Positions 1 through 7,351 of a stretch of 23,857 bases of DNA are shown piece by piece. Made by a program: the position numbers and the translations under genes. The notes below the pieces were generated by a model. That model saw only the letters and a list, made by a program, of their open reading frames with translations. It did not search any database and was not told where the DNA came from. The stretch comes from a virus: the IMG/VR virus record IMGVR_UViG_3300020445_000076, positions 1 through 23,857 of that record. One strand, given 5' to 3'. How positions within the stretch are numbered: position 1 is the stretch's first letter; each line of letters begins with the position of its first letter.

Positions 1-423
1 TTCTATGATTTTGTTTTTATAATTACAAGTAAAGATGAACCTGCAGTTCTTTTGAAACTCTTCAATCGACGCTCGTAGAAGTAATTGTACGTCAGGCGTT
101 GTGTTGTCTGCCTCATCCACAATAATAACCTTGTGGTTGGAACTAGAAGTGAGAGAAACAGTACTAGCAAAGGTCTTTGCCTGATTGCGTACAGTGTCCA
201 AGAATCGACCTTCATCCGATCCATTAATGACATAATAATCTGCTCCAATCTCGTTACATAATGCCTTAGCGACAGTAGTTTTACCAACTCCCGCAGGACC
301 AGCAAGAAGAAGATTAGGAATCTCTCCTTGCTTTAAGAACGCTTTAAACATCTCCTTAGATTCATCGGGAATTATACATTCCTCAATGGTCTTTGGTCGA
401 TATTGTTCAACCCATAGAAACAT
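1..423 (-). CDS. gp44: Sliding clamp loader large subunit gp44 (partial)
   Basis: AAA+ ATPase subunit of the clamp loader, which with gp62 opens the gp45 ring and places it on primer-template junctions. The frame is open for 141 codons from the ATG at 423 to the window edge, so this is the N-terminal part only (T4 gp44 is about 320 residues). The start reads MFLWVEQYRPKTIEE, typical of clamp loader subunits. Walker A GPAGVGKT is at residues 42-49, Walker B VIIVDEAD at 99-106, and the sensor-1-like FTCN at 131-134. The gene begins 6 bases after the gp45 stop, in the T4 order 45-44. The C-terminal collar domain and gp62 lie outside the window. The identification is secure from motifs and context. 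Confidence 0.95.
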   Translation of the reverse strand, partial: MFLWVEQYRPKTIEECIIPDESKEMFKAFLKQGEIPNLLLAGPAGVGKTTVAKALCNEIGADYYVINGSDEGRFLDTVRNQAKTFASTVSLTSSSNHKVIIVDEADNTTPDVQLLLRASIEEFQKNCRFIFTCNYKNKIIE

Positions 424-429
424 AATTAA

Positions 430-1122
430 TTACTCGTTGTCTGGTTCTAGTGCTATGAAATATTCAACATCAAGGTTTTGACCCTTGAAGTGTGCTACCT
501 TCTTCTCAGAGATATTCACAACATAATTAACTGATGTTGCAGAACGTTGTGCCTGTGAGATGACCTTAAGGTTTTCTACCTTAAAGCAGTAGCAATACTC
601 ACGTGTATCTTCACCAACAGCGATCTCAAATGAATTACTTGTATCATTCTTTCTATCAGTGACAGTCAATAACATCTGACCATCCTTAGTATACAAGCAT
701 AGATCTGGTACCATGTATAGTTTAGCAGCACGTTCAATAGTCATCAATGTTTCAGATGATAGATCGAACGAAGCAACAGTATCAGGTACCGCAAACTCCT
801 TTGTAGGTGGTGTGGTAATAATATCAGGGTCAGCGTAATAAAATGTGGTGCTAGAACGTCCATTCTTGGACTTAACACGACACTTCTTATCATCAACAAT
901 AAGTTCAGGACTATCAATCAATGAAACCCCACCCAAGAAGGTAGATAGATCATAGAATGCCATCTGATTTGGAAAGTCTTCGGGCACACTTGCTCTTGCA
1001 AGTATGTTCTTGTTGATGGAAATGGTGCTGATCTTACTACCTGGTTCAATAACAATAGACCTATTAATATTACTAAAGTTTTTTAGTAGATCATAGGTAA
1101 CTGGGGAAAGACTAATACTCAT
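430..1122 (-). CDS. gp45: Sliding clamp gp45 (DNA polymerase processivity factor)
   Basis: Ring-shaped trimeric clamp that tethers the phage polymerase and, in T4, also activates late transcription through gp55 and gp33. The protein has 230 residues, close to the 228 of T4 gp45, starts MSISLSPVTYDLLKNFSNI, and has the alternating strand pattern of PCNA-like folds. It overlaps the upstream 104-residue gene by four bases (ATGA), which implies translational coupling, and is followed after 6 bases by gp44. In this phage the clamp is therefore translated from the same message as the CobT-like/CobS genes upstream. The family call rests on length, N-terminal sequence and the gp45-gp44 order. Confidence 0.93.
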   Translation of the reverse strand: MSISLSPVTYDLLKNFSNINRSIVIEPGSKISTISINKNILARASVPEDFPNQMAFYDLSTFLGGVSLIDSPELIVDDKKCRVKSKNGRSSTTFYYADPDIITTPPTKEFAVPDTVASFDLSSETLMTIERAAKLYMVPDLCLYTKDGQMLLTVTDRKNDTSNSFEIAVGEDTREYCYCFKVENLKVISQAQRSATSVNYVVNISEKKVAHFKGQNLDVEYFIALEPDNE

Positions 1123-1433
1123 TTGTCGTAATCAACGGTGAATGCGGTTGGGTTGTTTGCAGCGATTTTATCTGCTTGATCTCGTTTATCATTAAAGTGA
1201 AGTAAGAGGATGCCGTAATGAATAATCTTTATGATATCCTTACGTGCTGTTCCTTTTCTATCATAACGAGATGCATACTTAAGAACATTACTTCTACAGA
1301 ATGCTTCAGCGTCACCTACAGAGTCAATCAAATCAAGTGTTTGAACATTACCGACTGAGTAGTGACCCTTGTAGGTCTGACTTATGTAATCGGAGATCTC
1401 TTTCAAGATCTCCTGCTCACTGTACTTTTGCAT
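1119..1433 (-). CDS. DUF3310-like small protein
   Basis: A 104-residue soluble protein between cobS and gp45. The central stretch from about residue 24 to 80 (GHYSVGNVQTLDLID, then AFCRSNVLKYASRYDRKG, then a helix with KDIIKIIHYGILLL) follows the pattern I associate with DUF3310, a small helical domain common in phages. The same domain forms part of the T7 gp1.7 nucleotide kinase; whether this short version has kinase activity cannot be told, and no P-loop is visible. It starts 3 bases after the cobS stop and overlaps the gp45 start by four bases, so it is firmly part of the operon. The domain call is from memory of the motif and is moderately sure. Confidence 0.8.
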   Translation of the reverse strand: MQKYSEQEILKEISDYISQTYKGHYSVGNVQTLDLIDSVGDAEAFCRSNVLKYASRYDRKGTARKDIIKIIHYGILLLHFNDKRDQADKIAANNPTAFTVDYDK

Positions 1434-1436
1434 AGT

Positions 1437-2525
1437 TTACTGCTCTTCTGTATCTTTGTCAAATGCGACATCAACATCTATCTTATCATATAATTCTAAG
1501 AATGACTGCTTTGTCTCTTCATCGAATCTGTTAAGACATACCTTGATTGCCTTTAGTCTATCACCAAAGATAGCAAATGCACGGATTATGTGCACTAGAC
1601 GACGTGTAGAGATCACTTCATCCACTCCACCCTCAGCAAATGTCTTACGGATGATGTCTGCCCAGTTAACTAAGTTCTTCTGGAAGTCCTCATCACAGCA
1701 ATCTAACTCAGTGCAGTAGTTCTTAAGCATTTTCTGCTCAATAGCAACAGATGGATACTCCTGCTCAAATGTTAGAGGGAATCTCTCAAGGAATGCTTCA
1801 TTTAGTACATTAGTACCAACAAAGCGACCATCCTCGGATCCTTTTCCTTTAGTGTTGGCAGTAGCAACGACTGTGAATCCCTTAGTTGGGGTAACATATC
1901 TACCAGTCTTCTTTAGAAACACGCCCTTACCTTCAAGGATGGATTGTAAGCATAGGATTTTATTAGAAGCAAGGTCAATTTCGTCGAGTAACAAGACTGC
2001 TCCCCTCTCCAGTGCTTCGATGACAGGTCCATTATGCCAAACAGTGTTCCCATCCACAAGGCGAAACCCACCAATAAGATCGTCTTCATCAGTCTCCACA
2101 GTAATGTTTACACGAATCAATTCACGATTCAATTGAGCACATGATTGCTCTACACCGAAGGTCTTACCGTTACCTGATAGACCAGTGATGAATATGGGAT
2201 AGAATATACCTGCTTTGAGTACTTTTTTTAGATCTCTAAAGTTCCCAAAGGGTACGAAGTTGTTATCTGTCTGTGGAATCAAGTTCTGTCTCTCAGGTTT
2301 TGCAGCAGGAGCAGCAAGATTTCTTTCTAATCTTTCTGTGATTGTTAAATCCCACTTACCAATACCTGCTTTATATGTCTTAAGACGTTTCTTAACAGTA
2401 GCAAGTGAGCACTCATAATGATCTGCTGCTTCTAGAAGATTTTGATTGTTTACGTCTTCACCATGCCTATCTTTTAGGAAAGTTACAAGGTCTTGAGTAG
2501 TGACGGGTACTGGTTCGAATGGCAT
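1437..2525 (-). CDS. cobS: CobS-like AAA+ ATPase (cobaltochelatase small subunit homologue)
   Basis: A 362-residue MoxR-class AAA+ ATPase of the type annotated as CobS in marine cyanophages. Walker A GLSGNGKT is at residues 115-122, Walker B LLLDEID at 178-184, sensor-1 ATANT at 221-225, and a probable arginine finger in LERF at about 248. The N-terminal 60 residues look helical with a helix-turn-helix-like segment (residues 31-51). In bacteria CobS works with CobT and CobN to insert cobalt into hydrogenobyrinate diamide. CobN is not in this window, but a VWA protein with CobT features lies two genes upstream. The start is 4 bases after the upstream stop. The AAA+ class is certain. A role in cobalamin synthesis is only inferred from the name; a MoxR/VWA-type remodelling role on another target is equally possible. 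Confidence 0.88.
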   Translation of the reverse strand: MPFEPVPVTTQDLVTFLKDRHGEDVNNQNLLEAADHYECSLATVKKRLKTYKAGIGKWDLTITERLERNLAAPAAKPERQNLIPQTDNNFVPFGNFRDLKKVLKAGIFYPIFITGLSGNGKTFGVEQSCAQLNRELIRVNITVETDEDDLIGGFRLVDGNTVWHNGPVIEALERGAVLLLDEIDLASNKILCLQSILEGKGVFLKKTGRYVTPTKGFTVVATANTKGKGSEDGRFVGTNVLNEAFLERFPLTFEQEYPSVAIEQKMLKNYCTELDCCDEDFQKNLVNWADIIRKTFAEGGVDEVISTRRLVHIIRAFAIFGDRLKAIKVCLNRFDEETKQSFLELYDKIDVDVAFDKDTEEQ

Positions 2526-2529
2526 GTGT

Positions 2530-3087
2530 TTAATCTTTGAATATGTCTATATTATAATGCACTTTTTTGGGTTGTGGTAATAACCATGACGGTTTTCTAT
2601 CTGGCACACGTAGATAATTATCCTTCACCCACGGTTTAGATGCAACATACTTTTGATATGCTGTAACTGTATCGATACTACTATCATTCTTGATATCATC
2701 TGGCATAGCACGTACAAATGGGGTATGTTTCTCCCAACATGTACCTGACCACAACATACCAGCATACCTAATGGCATCCTCACTGGCATGTCTCTTACCA
2801 AACCTATAAGTATACTCCTCACACAGACCTATACCATGCTGCAACAACCAATTGATATTATATCTGCTCTTTGCTGCCCACCTAGTACATGGATGATTCT
2901 TGAAAGCACCCTTCTGAGTCTTGTAAGGTGTGCCATCTGCCTTGTATATAGGACCAATGTCATGAATATGAGGACTATAGATAACTGCTAACATCTGTGC
3001 CGTTTCTACAGGCATCTTCACAATATGACGATCTGGCAACTCACATGCTGCCAGATACGGATCCTCATTGACACAAAAGATGTTCAT
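2530..3087 (-). CDS. Conserved phage protein of unknown function (MNIF-type)
   Basis: A 185-residue soluble protein starting MNIFCVNEDPYLAACELPD, which resembles a widespread phage family whose function I do not know. Candidate conserved positions are D9-P10, the DRHIVKM motif near residue 20 followed by an ETAQML helix, NHPCTRW near residue 64, and EEYTYRFGKRH near residue 95; repeated His, Asp and Glu suggest an active or metal site but this is inference. It sits between the CobT-like and CobS genes, overlapping the first by four bases (ATGA) and ending 4 bases before the second, so the three are translated together. No signal peptide or membrane segment is visible. Confidence 0.8.
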   Translation of the reverse strand: MNIFCVNEDPYLAACELPDRHIVKMPVETAQMLAVIYSPHIHDIGPIYKADGTPYKTQKGAFKNHPCTRWAAKSRYNINWLLQHGIGLCEEYTYRFGKRHASEDAIRYAGMLWSGTCWEKHTPFVRAMPDDIKNDSSIDTVTAYQKYVASKPWVKDNYLRVPDRKPSWLLPQPKKVHYNIDIFKD

Positions 3088-5261
3088 GCAATTTGACTAA
3101 TGAATGATGATAGAACTTTTTTGTTGGATGCTTTACCTTTTAACTTTTTCTTAAAGGCAGTACGTATTTTACCCTTAGTAGCACCCTCTTCCACATCTAA
3201 TTCTACGTCGTTAGATAGTGATGATGACTGAACTAGATACAATTCGTTATATCCCCAGTTACGAAGGATGTACTGCTTATCTTTTTTAAACTTAGCAGTC
3301 TCCCTATCAAGTTCACTCCAGTGGAAGGTATCTGTGTGACCAAGTAGTCTGGTTGCCTCACGAGTAGTGCATATACGGAATCCCATAATGTTTACATTCT
3401 TCTGAGCATCCCTAACATACTCTAGCAACCTCCTTGTTACATTTAAATAGGAACCATTCTTCTCAAATACTCTACCAGTCTTAGGATTACGGAAGTGTGA
3501 GTTGTATGATAGACCTGACTTGTTAATACTGAAACCCATAGTACCATCATCTTGTAACCAAGTTCTCTTTCTCCAGTAGCAAGAGCAATTAGACTCACCA
3601 TCAGTAAGAATAATAACATTTAACTTCTCAACACCAGTCTTAGCACGGAACTGAGGTAGAAGTGTAGGAAGACAAGCAATCGCTTCATTTAGAGGAGTGC
3701 CACCAAGACTACAGAAACCAGGAAGGGGTATAGTTTGTGTGTATGTGCCTGTCTCCCAGTCATATACTTGTCTAAAAGTCAATCCATATACTGTACGGAA
3801 CAAATACTTTGCAGAAGTTTCAAAGTCTTGATTGTTATCTTGACTACTTAATAGATTAACAAGACGGAAAGAGTTATCAAAGGCAAGAGTGTTTGGTTTA
3901 GCAGTCTCATAAGAGTCATCATACTCCCAAACTCTATCATAAACGAATGAATAAACTTCAAATGGAATACCAACCTTGCGACAGAAATAAGTTAGTGATA
4001 GAAGTTGTTCAACGGTGTCCTTAATGACGTGATGCATAGATCCAGACCAGTCAAGATAGAATACTAGACCATGATTCTTACCATCAGGTGTGTTACTAAT
4101 CTTCAGGAATAAATCCTCACTCCACTTGTATGTGTGGAGTTTTTTCATGTCTAAAATACCAGTTTTAGAGACAGTTGATCTCTTATATGCTGCAGCAGAC
4201 TTCTTCATCTCAAACTCTTTCACAAGGTAGTTCACCTCACGATTAGCAGAGTCCTTAAACTTACGATATTCAGAGTCAACTTGTGTAAAATCAACAGGTT
4301 TCTCACCATATTGTTTTCTATCCTCTTGACACTGATTCCAGAAAGCAGTGTACTGATCTCTAAGGTATGAATGACTAACAATAGTCTTCTTAAGATCTAC
4401 ATCCCCAAGTTCTACGTATATTGGAGCACTCTCTTCATTTTTATTAGCAGCATTTGCAAGTGCTTCTTGTAATGCTTTGTCAGTTCTAACCTCATCTGCA
4501 CTATCTCCACCTGCTTGACCTGATTCTTGCTCAAAACTAGGTACATCTAGTTGTGCAGGGTCATTTGCAGGTTCATTACTCTCTTGCAGATCTTCATCCT
4601 CAACTATATCATTCTTCTCTGCTTGCTTCTCTCCAGTTGTTTCTGTTTCTTCACCCTTTTGCTCCTTATCATCCACTTTAAACTCTGCTTTAGGTGCCTT
4701 TGCTGCCTCTTGTTGCTTAGACTTCTCTAAACGATAGAGTACTTGAGCAGCATCAACTGCTTCAGTAAATGTTTCAGCAGCACCAACCATATCTACGTAC
4801 TGTTGCTCTTCATCTGAGAATGGAATCAATGCAAGAGCACCAATCTTAAAGTGTAGATTGATACGATCAATTAATTTAAGTTCACTGGGATCTACATCAT
4901 TGATTTGGAAGAAATCACGGTCATTTAAGTTGGCATATCCCTGATAGAAACACTTAGCAAGACCAGGAAACTTATGCTTCATCAACTTCTCAATACGAGC
5001 ATCCTCAGTAACGTTCACATAAGATCTTGGGATCTCTGGTGGGATATGTTCCTTATCTGATGGTGGTGTAAAGAGAGCATGTCCTACTTCATGTCCAACT
5101 AGTAGGTCATATGTCACGTTCTCTAGTCCTTCCCAGATAGGAAGAGTTAAAATTCTTGTATCTACATCGAAACATGCTGTCTCAACAACCCTATGCTCAA
5201 CTATTAGATTTTCAGTTGCAAGTAGTTTCGCTAAGGTGCCTTTGATTTCTTGTGTTGCCAT
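3084..5261 (-). CDS. CobT-like protein: HExxH domain plus von Willebrand A domain
   Basis: A protein of 725 residues counting from the ATG at 5261 (MATQEIKGTLAKLL). A GTG 14 codons upstream is less likely because it lies inside the preceding hairpin. The N-terminal domain carries HEVGH at residues 57-61 and a following NVTEDARIE at 83-91, the spacing of gluzincin-type zinc sites. Residues about 181-260 form an acidic, Glu/Gln-rich linker. The C-terminal part is a VWA domain: MIDAS motif DWSGS at 404-408, then GGTPLNEA and LTDGESN. Acidic linker plus VWA resembles bacterial CobT, which partners CobS; VWA proteins commonly partner MoxR-class ATPases. The gene is first in the coupled operon leading to cobS and the clamp genes. 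VWA is certain; the metallopeptidase activity is inferred only from the motif. Confidence 0.85.
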   Translation of the reverse strand: MATQEIKGTLAKLLATENLIVEHRVVETACFDVDTRILTLPIWEGLENVTYDLLVGHEVGHALFTPPSDKEHIPPEIPRSYVNVTEDARIEKLMKHKFPGLAKCFYQGYANLNDRDFFQINDVDPSELKLIDRINLHFKIGALALIPFSDEEQQYVDMVGAAETFTEAVDAAQVLYRLEKSKQQEAAKAPKAEFKVDDKEQKGEETETTGEKQAEKNDIVEDEDLQESNEPANDPAQLDVPSFEQESGQAGGDSADEVRTDKALQEALANAANKNEESAPIYVELGDVDLKKTIVSHSYLRDQYTAFWNQCQEDRKQYGEKPVDFTQVDSEYRKFKDSANREVNYLVKEFEMKKSAAAYKRSTVSKTGILDMKKLHTYKWSEDLFLKISNTPDGKNHGLVFYLDWSGSMHHVIKDTVEQLLSLTYFCRKVGIPFEVYSFVYDRVWEYDDSYETAKPNTLAFDNSFRLVNLLSSQDNNQDFETSAKYLFRTVYGLTFRQVYDWETGTYTQTIPLPGFCSLGGTPLNEAIACLPTLLPQFRAKTGVEKLNVIILTDGESNCSCYWRKRTWLQDDGTMGFSINKSGLSYNSHFRNPKTGRVFEKNGSYLNVTRRLLEYVRDAQKNVNIMGFRICTTREATRLLGHTDTFHWSELDRETAKFKKDKQYILRNWGYNELYLVQSSSLSNDVELDVEEGATKGKIRTAFKKKLKGKASNKKVLSSFISQIA

Positions 5262-5295: not shown

Positions 5296-5316
5296 AACCC
5301 CACGCTTGGTGGGGTT
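5296..5316 (-). terminator. GC-rich hairpin after the 77-residue gene
   Basis: A perfect 8-bp stem AACCCCAC/GTGGGGTT with a 5-base loop lies 14 bases after the stop of the upstream gene. On the minus strand it is followed by TTTCGTC, a short and imperfect U tract. It probably reduces read-through into the CobT-like operon, or could protect the 3' end of the upstream transcript. It overlaps the alternative GTG start of the CobT-like gene, which argues for the later ATG. Confidence 0.6.
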
Positions 5317-5632: not shown

Positions 5633-7351
5633 TCAAGCCCCATTCTCATCCGAAATTCTAGAAAAATCGTTAGGTTTACTGAACCTAATGGTCTTAGGAA
5701 ACTTGTCCAGAAGCACTTCACCCTTATGAGATATCACAAACATGTTGGAATTATCTCTAAAGCACTTCAATATCTTCAACAACTCCTCAGTAGCAGCATT
5801 ATCCAATGAAGAATCAAATACTTCATCCAGAATCAATAGATTTGTGTTAGCACTGTTCTTTTGTTGAGCAATTGAACGCCAAGTAAAGAGAAGTGCTAGG
5901 TCAATCTTCTGCTTTTCACCCTCTGAGAAGGAAGAATAGGTGAAAACGTCCCTATAACGTGACTTAATCACCTCATTAAACTCCTCATCAAGGGTAAAGT
6001 TGACAAAGAAGTCCATCTCTGAGAGATATTTATTGATTTTCTGGTTAATTGTGGGTATAAACTTCCGAATGATCTTAGTTTTAATACCACCATCCTTTAA
6101 AAGATTACCAACGACCTTTAAATTCTCTGCTCTCTTGTTAATATTAGAACAAATTGCTTGCTTATCATCCTTCTCACCAATCAGATCACTCAAGACCTCC
6201 TTCTCTCTCTTCAGATCAGTAGATCCACCACTCAATTCTTCCTCAAGACCTTTATTATCCAAACGTAATCTAGATTGCTCCTTCAAAAGAGAGTTAACTG
6301 TCTGTCTCTTCTCAATTAATTCAACAGCAACCTTCTCTGACTTCTTAATCTCAGCAAGAACTTCCTTAGCATCCTTAGTTATGTCAGAAATACGTTCATT
6401 AAAGTCAACAACAGATTCATTTAGAGTTTTGCAATGGTGTTGCTTCCATTTTGGTTGAATTTCCTGTGTACAGGTGGGGCAAACATCATTACTCTCAAAG
6501 AAAACTATATCTTTTTGAGTCTTTTTCAATGTCTGATTGAGTTTAGTACGACTTTCTTTAAGAGAATCATACTTATCCTTATAATCATCCAACTTAGTTA
6601 TCTTAGGTTCAAGATTACCAATTACTTCAGTGATTGTGTGAACCTCACCATCAATAGCATCAGACCTTTGTAGGTTTCTATCAATTCTATCTCTCTTTTC
6701 TTTTAAATATTTGTCTGATTGTTGCTCTAAATTATCTATGTTCTCCTCTTTAAGTTGAACCTTCTGCTGTGCAAGTGCTAATTCATGTACACATGCCTTC
6801 TGTTCTTCTCTAGTATCCTTTATTCTATCCTTAAGGATAGCATTCATCTGACTGAAGACCTTGATGTCGAGTAGATCTTCGATAATTTCTCTGCGGACAA
6901 CTGCTCCGAGTTGCATGAAGGGTACAAAAGTTGATGATCCAAGGATAACAACTTGGGTGAAAGACTTGTAATTAAGTCCAAGGATTGATTGCTCAAGGTA
7001 TTTTTGGTAATCCTTGTTCGCTGCGTCTTGGTCAATGAGTTGACCATTTCTAAAAATCTTGAAAACATTAGGTTTAATACCTCTCACTACATGATAATTT
7101 ATACTACCAATATTAAATTCAACTTCTACAACACAGTCCTTCTCATTAACTGAGTTAACTAACTGACCTTTAAGTATTTTCCTAAAAGGTTTATTAAAAA
7201 GAACAAAGGTAAGAGCATCCAACATTGTGGATTTACCTGATCCGTTATGTCCAACTACTAAGGTAGCAGAAGAACCAACAAGATCCATCTCTATAAAAGT
7301 GTTACCCGTAGAAAGAAAGTTCTTCCAACGAATCTTCTCAAAAACAATCAT
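5633..7351 (-). CDS. gp46: Recombination nuclease subunit gp46 (Rad50/SbcC-like)
   Basis: The ATPase subunit of the gp46/gp47 complex, which processes DNA ends for recombination-dependent replication and helps degrade host DNA. The protein has 572 residues (T4 gp46 is 560). Walker A GHNGSGKS is at residues 34-41, long coiled coils run from about 170 to 285 and 300 to 420, a zinc-hook CPTC at 291-294 lies between them, the ABC signature FSEGEK at 475-480, Walker B LLILDE at 505-510 and H-loop SH at 541-542. It starts 3 bases after the 90-residue gene. In T4, 47 and 46 are close together; here two genes separate them. Confidence 0.96.
   Translation of the reverse strand: MIVFEKIRWKNFLSTGNTFIEMDLVGSSATLVVGHNGSGKSTMLDALTFVLFNKPFRKILKGQLVNSVNEKDCVVEVEFNIGSINYHVVRGIKPNVFKIFRNGQLIDQDAANKDYQKYLEQSILGLNYKSFTQVVILGSSTFVPFMQLGAVVRREIIEDLLDIKVFSQMNAILKDRIKDTREEQKACVHELALAQQKVQLKEENIDNLEQQSDKYLKEKRDRIDRNLQRSDAIDGEVHTITEVIGNLEPKITKLDDYKDKYDSLKESRTKLNQTLKKTQKDIVFFESNDVCPTCTQEIQPKWKQHHCKTLNESVVDFNERISDITKDAKEVLAEIKKSEKVAVELIEKRQTVNSLLKEQSRLRLDNKGLEEELSGGSTDLKREKEVLSDLIGEKDDKQAICSNINKRAENLKVVGNLLKDGGIKTKIIRKFIPTINQKINKYLSEMDFFVNFTLDEEFNEVIKSRYRDVFTYSSFSEGEKQKIDLALLFTWRSIAQQKNSANTNLLILDEVFDSSLDNAATEELLKILKCFRDNSNMFVISHKGEVLLDKFPKTIRFSKPNDFSRISDENGA

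Follow-up and report, generated by a model that had tools for sequence, protein, structure and literature searches.

A CobT-like/CobS-like gene pair of phages as a candidate AAA+/VWA machine with a putative peptidase domain

The virus record IMGVR_UViG_3300020445_000076 of IMG/VR is a 23.9-kb stretch of DNA, here called the window, which opens with a cluster of six minus-strand genes occupying its first 5.3 kb. In sequence, these encode a CobT-like protein with a VWA domain, an endonuclease-V-like glycosylase, a CobS-like AAA+ ATPase, a DUF3310 protein, the gp45 sliding clamp and the gp44 clamp loader. On the best reading, the CobT-like/CobS-like pair is a MoxR-type AAA+/VWA remodelling machine whose peptidase domain is probably active, and cobalt chelation is not its main task. 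An intact gluzincin signature (HEVGH...NxxED) marks the N-terminal domain of the CobT-like protein, and this peptidase-like domain had been overlooked in the initial annotation.

The gene cluster and its packing

The cluster comprises the following genes:

3084-5261, minus strand: CobT-like protein P0001, 725 amino acids, with an N-terminal gluzincin-like domain, an acidic linker and a C-terminal VWA domain (phrog_459 'peptidase', expectation value (E) 2e-240)
2530-3087, minus strand: pyrimidine-dimer DNA glycosylase, endonuclease V-like (Pfam PF03013, E 5e-10)
1437-2525, minus strand: CobS-like AAA+ ATPase P0003 of the MoxR/CbbQ class, 362 amino acids (PF07728, E 2e-17; CbbQ_C)
1119-1433, minus strand: DUF3310 protein (PF11753, E 5e-11)
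430-1122, minus strand: gp45 sliding clamp (PF09116, E 5e-9; phrog_223, E 4e-74)
1-423, minus strand: gp44 clamp loader, 141 amino acids, truncated at the window edge (phrog_168, E 6e-68)

The initial annotation described the genes from the CobT-like protein to gp44 as joined by ATGA overlaps or by gaps of 3-6 bases. The junctions computed from the sequence agree: there are four-base ATGA overlaps at cobT-like/glycosylase and DUF3310/gp45, and gaps of 4, 3 and 6 bases at glycosylase/cobS, cobS/DUF3310 and gp45/gp44, respectively. The weight placed on translational coupling was nevertheless an over-reading, as the same tightness is found elsewhere in the window and is not conserved among relatives. 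In the list of open reading frames of the window, seven of the next eight junctions upstream from gp46 (5633-7351) also measure at most 4 bases. Tight packing is therefore the background in this window, and coupling alone says little.

The cluster begins after a 68-base gap between cobT and the preceding gene. One feature was read from the sequence of this gap, upstream of cobT:

5296-5316, minus strand: perfect hairpin of 8 base pairs with a 5-base loop

The hairpin is a possible transcription-unit boundary and could terminate the preceding unit. A promoter scan gave no excess over shuffled sequences. The gp62 gene is absent from the cluster, and the DUF3310 protein was considered as a candidate gp62 and rejected. 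In other phages, the DUF3310 domain forms part of nucleotide kinase families, as judged from PHROG matches.

The CobT-like protein and its ATPase partner

The peptidase-like features of the CobT-like protein are as follows:

4692-5261, minus strand: N-terminal domain, residues 1-190 (AlphaFold2 model, mean predicted local distance difference test score 88.8; the top PDB matches by probability are HExxH metallopeptidases)
5079-5093, minus strand: HEVGH, residues 57-61, with H57 and H61 as putative zinc ligands and E58 as the putative general base
5001-5015, minus strand: NVTED, residues 83-87, with E86, on the following helix, as the putative third zinc ligand

In the AlphaFold2 model, HExxH lies on a helix (48-64) that is followed by a small sheet and then by E86 on a second helix (79-97). 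A HExxH helix followed by a Glu helix is the arrangement of zincin-like peptidases (PMC5512222). Alignments of nine Kyanoviridae proteins (A1) and of 60 N-terminal domains (A4) show no variation at H57, E58, H61, N83, E86 and D87. The HExxH motif is kept in all 83 related virus contigs that were fetched for comparison of gene order, a set that is not fully unbiased, as the motif itself went into part of the search patterns. It is also present in 19 of 20 diverse phages that were found with tblastn and without reference to the motif.

Foldseek comparison of the domain with the PDB gave the highest probabilities to selecase (0.98, with a template modelling score of 0.53 on the target and E 0.12), ArdC (0.90) and abylysin (0.80), all of which are metallopeptidases; PprI/IrrE reached 0.41. 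Among viral predicted structures, the fold recurs in phage and archaeal-virus CobT, and weaker matches include peptidase families. A 355-residue protein of Haloarcula hispanica tailed virus 2 (HHTV-2; BFVD R4T663) also matches this fold. In HHTV-2 cobT is split, with the VWA domain in a separate open reading frame (Liu et al. 2021, PMC8651126), which may leave the peptidase-like domain as a protein of its own. The same study regards it as an error to label cyanophage cobT 'peptidase'. On the evidence gathered here, the label has substance; the peptidase activity is putative, and the domain is probably active.

Family placement of the whole protein is less direct. P0001 has no significant match in Pfam or NCBIfam, including TIGR01651 and the Pfam CobT family PF06213, and PF06213 had no match anywhere in the window or in the genomes of S-PM2 and of Pelagibacter and Ochrobactrum phages. 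A Pfam search with the N-terminal domain found no family, and direct PDB sequence searches with the protein and its domains returned nothing useful. Profile comparison with hhalign connects the cyanophage proteins to other phage CobT (E 4e-22 over the N-terminal domain; E 3e-18 over 525 columns), and the other phage CobT match the chelatase CobT of Alphaproteobacteria in turn (E 2.5e-53 over 571 columns). No direct profile match between cyanophage and chelatase CobT was detectable. The name 'CobT-like' is thus right, at a distance, because the link to chelatase CobT runs only through other phage CobT.

Chelatase-type CobT lacks the peptidase motif. HExxH occurs in none of 36 such proteins from Alphaproteobacteria; in the profile alignment, ALAMK stands opposite HExxH, with EQ or a similar pair in place of ED. 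A shifted zinc motif (H-D-xxx-H) in chelatase CobT was considered and dropped, since ALAMK aligns opposite HExxH. In a tree of 75 proteins, whose genome-contig sample was fetched partly by the HExxH pattern, chelatase CobT comes out as a single long-branched group, beside the CobT of roseophages and Cobavirinae and inside the HExxH proteins. With the motif residues masked, a tree that unites the other HExxH proteins (the cyanophage group aside) without chelatase CobT is rejected (approximately unbiased test, p-AU 0.034). The simplest reading, in a tree whose root is not known, is that the peptidase site was lost in the chelatase branch, because the motif is absent from all 36 proteins and chelatase CobT nests among HExxH proteins. 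Chelatase-type CobT is also mixed up in annotation with the dimethylbenzimidazole phosphoribosyltransferase CobT, as in Escherichia phage Cyrano and in PMC11288001.

The motor and adaptor motifs of the pair are also complete:

2160-2183, minus strand: Walker A GLSGNGKT, CobS residues 115-122 (G115, G118, G120 and K121 invariant)
1974-1985, minus strand: Walker B DEID, CobS residues 181-184 (D181 and E182 invariant)
4035-4052, minus strand: VWA MIDAS DWSGSM, CobT-like residues 404-409 (invariant in alignment A5 and, with W or Y at 405, in A1)
3597-3605, minus strand: VWA MIDAS TDG, CobT-like residues 553-555 (invariant in A1; D and G invariant in A5)

P0003 matches the solved CobS structure (PDB 9ujv; E 3e-20), and also NorQ, CbbQ and the AAA modules of midasin. 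CobS is its best NCBIfam match, at 72.5 bits against a cut-off of 558.55 for the CobS equivalog TIGR01650, which it therefore does not reach. The C-terminal half of P0001 is a predicted VWA domain with a complete MIDAS. Compared with solved structures by Foldseek, it best matches the VWA of the NorQ-NorD complex (E 5e-4), followed by complement C2a and Ku80, with the MIDAS domain of midasin lower. Walker A and B motifs of the AAA_5/CbbQ class and a linked VWA domain with a MIDAS thus identify a MoxR-class AAA+/VWA pair. The initial suggestion of a general AAA+/VWA machine like NorQ/NorD is backed by the NorD match, by the missed cobaltochelatase cut-offs and by the presence of the pair in phages of hosts without CobN. 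A distant CobS-like AAA+ protein of the kayvirus Staphylococcus phage ISP (6707-7825) has no adjoining VWA partner, and Staphylococcus kayvirus matches were left uncounted as CobS pairs for that reason.

Gene neighbourhood, CobN and the function of the pair

On balance, the evidence leans slightly towards a MoxR-type AAA+ ring whose VWA adaptor would offer clients to the gluzincin-like domain, so that unfolding is combined with cleavage. CobS subunits would assemble into the ring, and the VWA domain would dock on it and hold a client through the MIDAS metal. ATP-driven pulling would then hand the client to the N-terminal domain, which would cleave it or process it once. The clients may be proteins met during phage DNA replication, as the conserved neighbourhood suggests, and chelatase-type CobT would be a derived branch that lost its peptidase site on adapting to CobN.

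A related but non-proteolytic activase, in which the pair remodels or metal-loads a particular enzyme in the manner of CbbQ/CbbO and NorQ/NorD and the N-terminal domain only binds metal or client, is considered unlikely. The NorD VWA is the best structural match, CbbQ_C is found in CobS, and relatives with damaged motifs exist, all of which favour such an activase. However, the catalytic Glu is kept along with both His residues in the sets examined, and this counts against it, because a mere metal-binding site does not need that Glu.

Gene order was compared across the related contigs. Where at least 2.5 kb downstream of cobT is available, cobS lies within 3 kb after cobT in 46 of 48 contigs, and at 3.6 and 4.0 kb in the other two. 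Similarly, gp45 follows cobS in all 20 contigs with at least 6 kb downstream of cobT, and DUF3310 sits between them in most related contigs. The order gp46, cobT, cobS, gp45 is conserved. The initial annotation had named a gene order unique to this phage as something that would undermine its proposal, and this is not the case. The tight coupling is not conserved, because the distance between cobT and cobS ranges from -45 to about 4000 bases; in P-SSM2, for example, several genes lie between the two. The freshwater phage S-CRM01 is an exception to the order, with its clamp genes on the opposite strand. Only the window and a few relatives (L002-L005 and L023) have the glycosylase gene separating cobT from cobS; many other related contigs carry the glycosylase downstream of gp45. 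It appears to be mobile within the module, because its position varies between these two sites.

Replication genes also adjoin the pair in Kyanoviridae, a Cobavirinae phage, and SSU5-type, Rhizobium and Stenotrophomonas phages. Primase, helicase and polymerase genes are near the pair in Vibrio ICP2, and in Escherichia phage PhiR41_1 (host K-12 MG1655) it neighbours the gene for DNA polymerase III alpha. In roseophage CRP-810, a pyrimidine-dimer glycosylase takes the place of replication genes near the pair. A conserved hydrophobic tail (NKKxLxxFxxxIA) was considered as a candidate clamp-binding motif and did not resemble the tails of gp55 and gp43 with which it was compared. The neighbourhood suggests a replication role for the pair, and it is the one observation that speaks for the initial proposal that the pair acts during replication.

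It is possible, though rather doubtful, that this location is without meaning, the genes lying beside gp45 because this is the early/middle module and the pair serving host takeover in a way unrelated to replication. Genes are tightly packed elsewhere in the window too, cobT and cobS stand at widely varying distances with other genes intervening, and the clamp genes of S-CRM01 are on the other strand. Against this stand the presence of gp45 in every informative contig and of replication genes nearby in unrelated phage families. This explanation concerns location only and is compatible with any mechanism; the likelihoods assigned here therefore do not sum to one.

The initial annotation noted that CobN is missing from this DNA, and none was found in the window. 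It had also proposed a search for CobN in cyanophage genomes. Sixteen phage genomes with the pair, one of them from an E. coli K-12 phage, yielded no CobN/ChlH-family protein, while positive controls were detected. Among 23 bacterial genomes with phage-type CobT, 14 have no CobN/ChlH-family protein, and neither does an E. coli control genome. Across 142 genomes of Alphaproteobacteria, CobT was found in 105, CobN in 55, and CobT without CobN in 53; the control Caulobacter likewise has CobT without CobN. Cellular CobS/CobT may therefore also serve a task other than cobalt chelation, given that 53 of the 105 CobT-bearing genomes have no CobN/ChlH-family protein.

Several points weigh against a proteolytic machine that acts during replication. 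Both proteolysis and the replication role are inferred from sequence, predicted fold and neighbourhood. The N-terminal domain has no PDB match at E < 0.001 in Foldseek, its fold similarity being weak (E 0.07 or more), and it could be a zinc-binding scaffold. Stenotrophomonas phage BUCTxx99, the sole exception among the 20 diverse phages, has lost HExxH, and Vibrio ICP2 carries V at the position of the third-ligand Glu; peptidase activity is therefore not required everywhere. Phage replication modules are compact, so that the neighbourhood is a weak clue to function. Some of the bacterial genomes are drafts in which single absences of CobN may be gaps, although draft gaps alone are unlikely to explain CobN-free totals of this size. 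Lastly, in the cyanobacterial class CobN scores over the cut-off in 56 of 59 genomes and CobT is essentially absent, which is what a chelatase model predicts for the hosts of this phage. For cyanophages, the hijack of a host chelatase is therefore conceivable, and with it the initial alternative of metal insertion for a host enzyme. The only CobT match among the 59 genomes, in Phormidium willei BDU 130791, is related to Rhizobium phage CobT and probably reflects a contaminated assembly.

In the published form of this model (Liu et al. 2021, PMC8651126), phage CobS and CobT join host CobN, insert cobalt and raise the supply of cobamides, for example for ribonucleotide reductase. That CobS is the top NCBIfam match of P0003 agrees with it. 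However, the pair persists where no CobN/ChlH-family protein exists, scores against the curated chelatase models fall far below cut-off, and what related viral CobT conserve is the peptidase motif, which is gone from chelatase CobT. Of the 16 phages that carry the pair, just one has a B12-dependent reductase that scores above the cut-off, so that one motive for making B12 is weakened. On this evidence, chelatase hijack is improbable as the main function of the pair.

A more specific form of the AAA+/VWA/peptidase machine, a replication-coupled roadblock protease, is a long shot. CobS would pull on proteins that block the fork and the VWA-gluzincin partner would cut them, as a counterpart of Cdc48 with Wss1/SPRTN. 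Targets might include host nucleoid proteins, stalled polymerases and crosslinked proteins, and chelatase CobT would have branched off later from such mobile-element proteins, with its peptidase dead.

Significance and known systems

The cobS/cobT pair of cyanophages, its core status and its clustering are already known, and cobS, a core cyanophage gene, appears time and again in lists of auxiliary metabolic genes as one that serves vitamin B12. In the literature outside subscription journals and preprints, no report was found of the intact peptidase site as a distinguishing feature, of its loss in chelatase CobT or of the hosts without CobN. If the pair is an AAA+/VWA/peptidase machine, the ecological reading in terms of B12 would be wrong for many viruses, and a highly conserved, unexplained gene pair of ocean viruses would gain a testable biochemistry (zinc, protease and client). 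The history of cobaltochelatase would also change, since CobT would then descend from a peptidase-VWA family and have become inactive. The same question arises for cells, as CobN is missing from half of the Alphaproteobacteria that have CobT.

Related ideas have been put forward for 'polyvalent' phage metallopeptidases (PMC5512222), where CobS and CobT are unmentioned, and for MoxR-VWA conflict systems, where CobS is unmentioned. The aerobic cobaltochelatase proteins CobS/CobT of Alphaproteobacteria, which act with CobN, share with the phage pair the combination of an AAA+ and a VWA gene. In contrast, the phage pair is without CobN, its proteins miss the equivalog cut-offs, and it has an intact HExxH where chelatase CobT has lost this motif. 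NorQ/NorD and CbbQ/CbbO resemble the pair in that the phage ATPase is of the CbbQ class and the phage VWA fold is closest to NorD. However, no nitric oxide reductase (NOR) or Rubisco partner gene is seen in the phage cluster, and NorD and CbbO are not known to carry an HExxH domain. Midasin (Rea1) also combines MoxR-type AAA+ modules with a MIDAS domain, and phage CobS has a strong sequence match to its AAA modules; midasin, however, unites six AAA modules in one chain and is not known to have a peptidase domain.

Unlike the small gluzincins and Wss1/SPRTN, to which its fold similarity is weak, the phage domain shares its chain with a VWA domain, and its gene adjoins that of a MoxR-type ATPase. 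It shares a HExxH helix with a Glu on the next helix with small gluzincins (selecase and abylysin), ArdC, IrrE/PprI and Wss1/SPRTN. Wss1 itself resembles minigluzincins and partners the AAA+ protein Cdc48 (PMC4559962).

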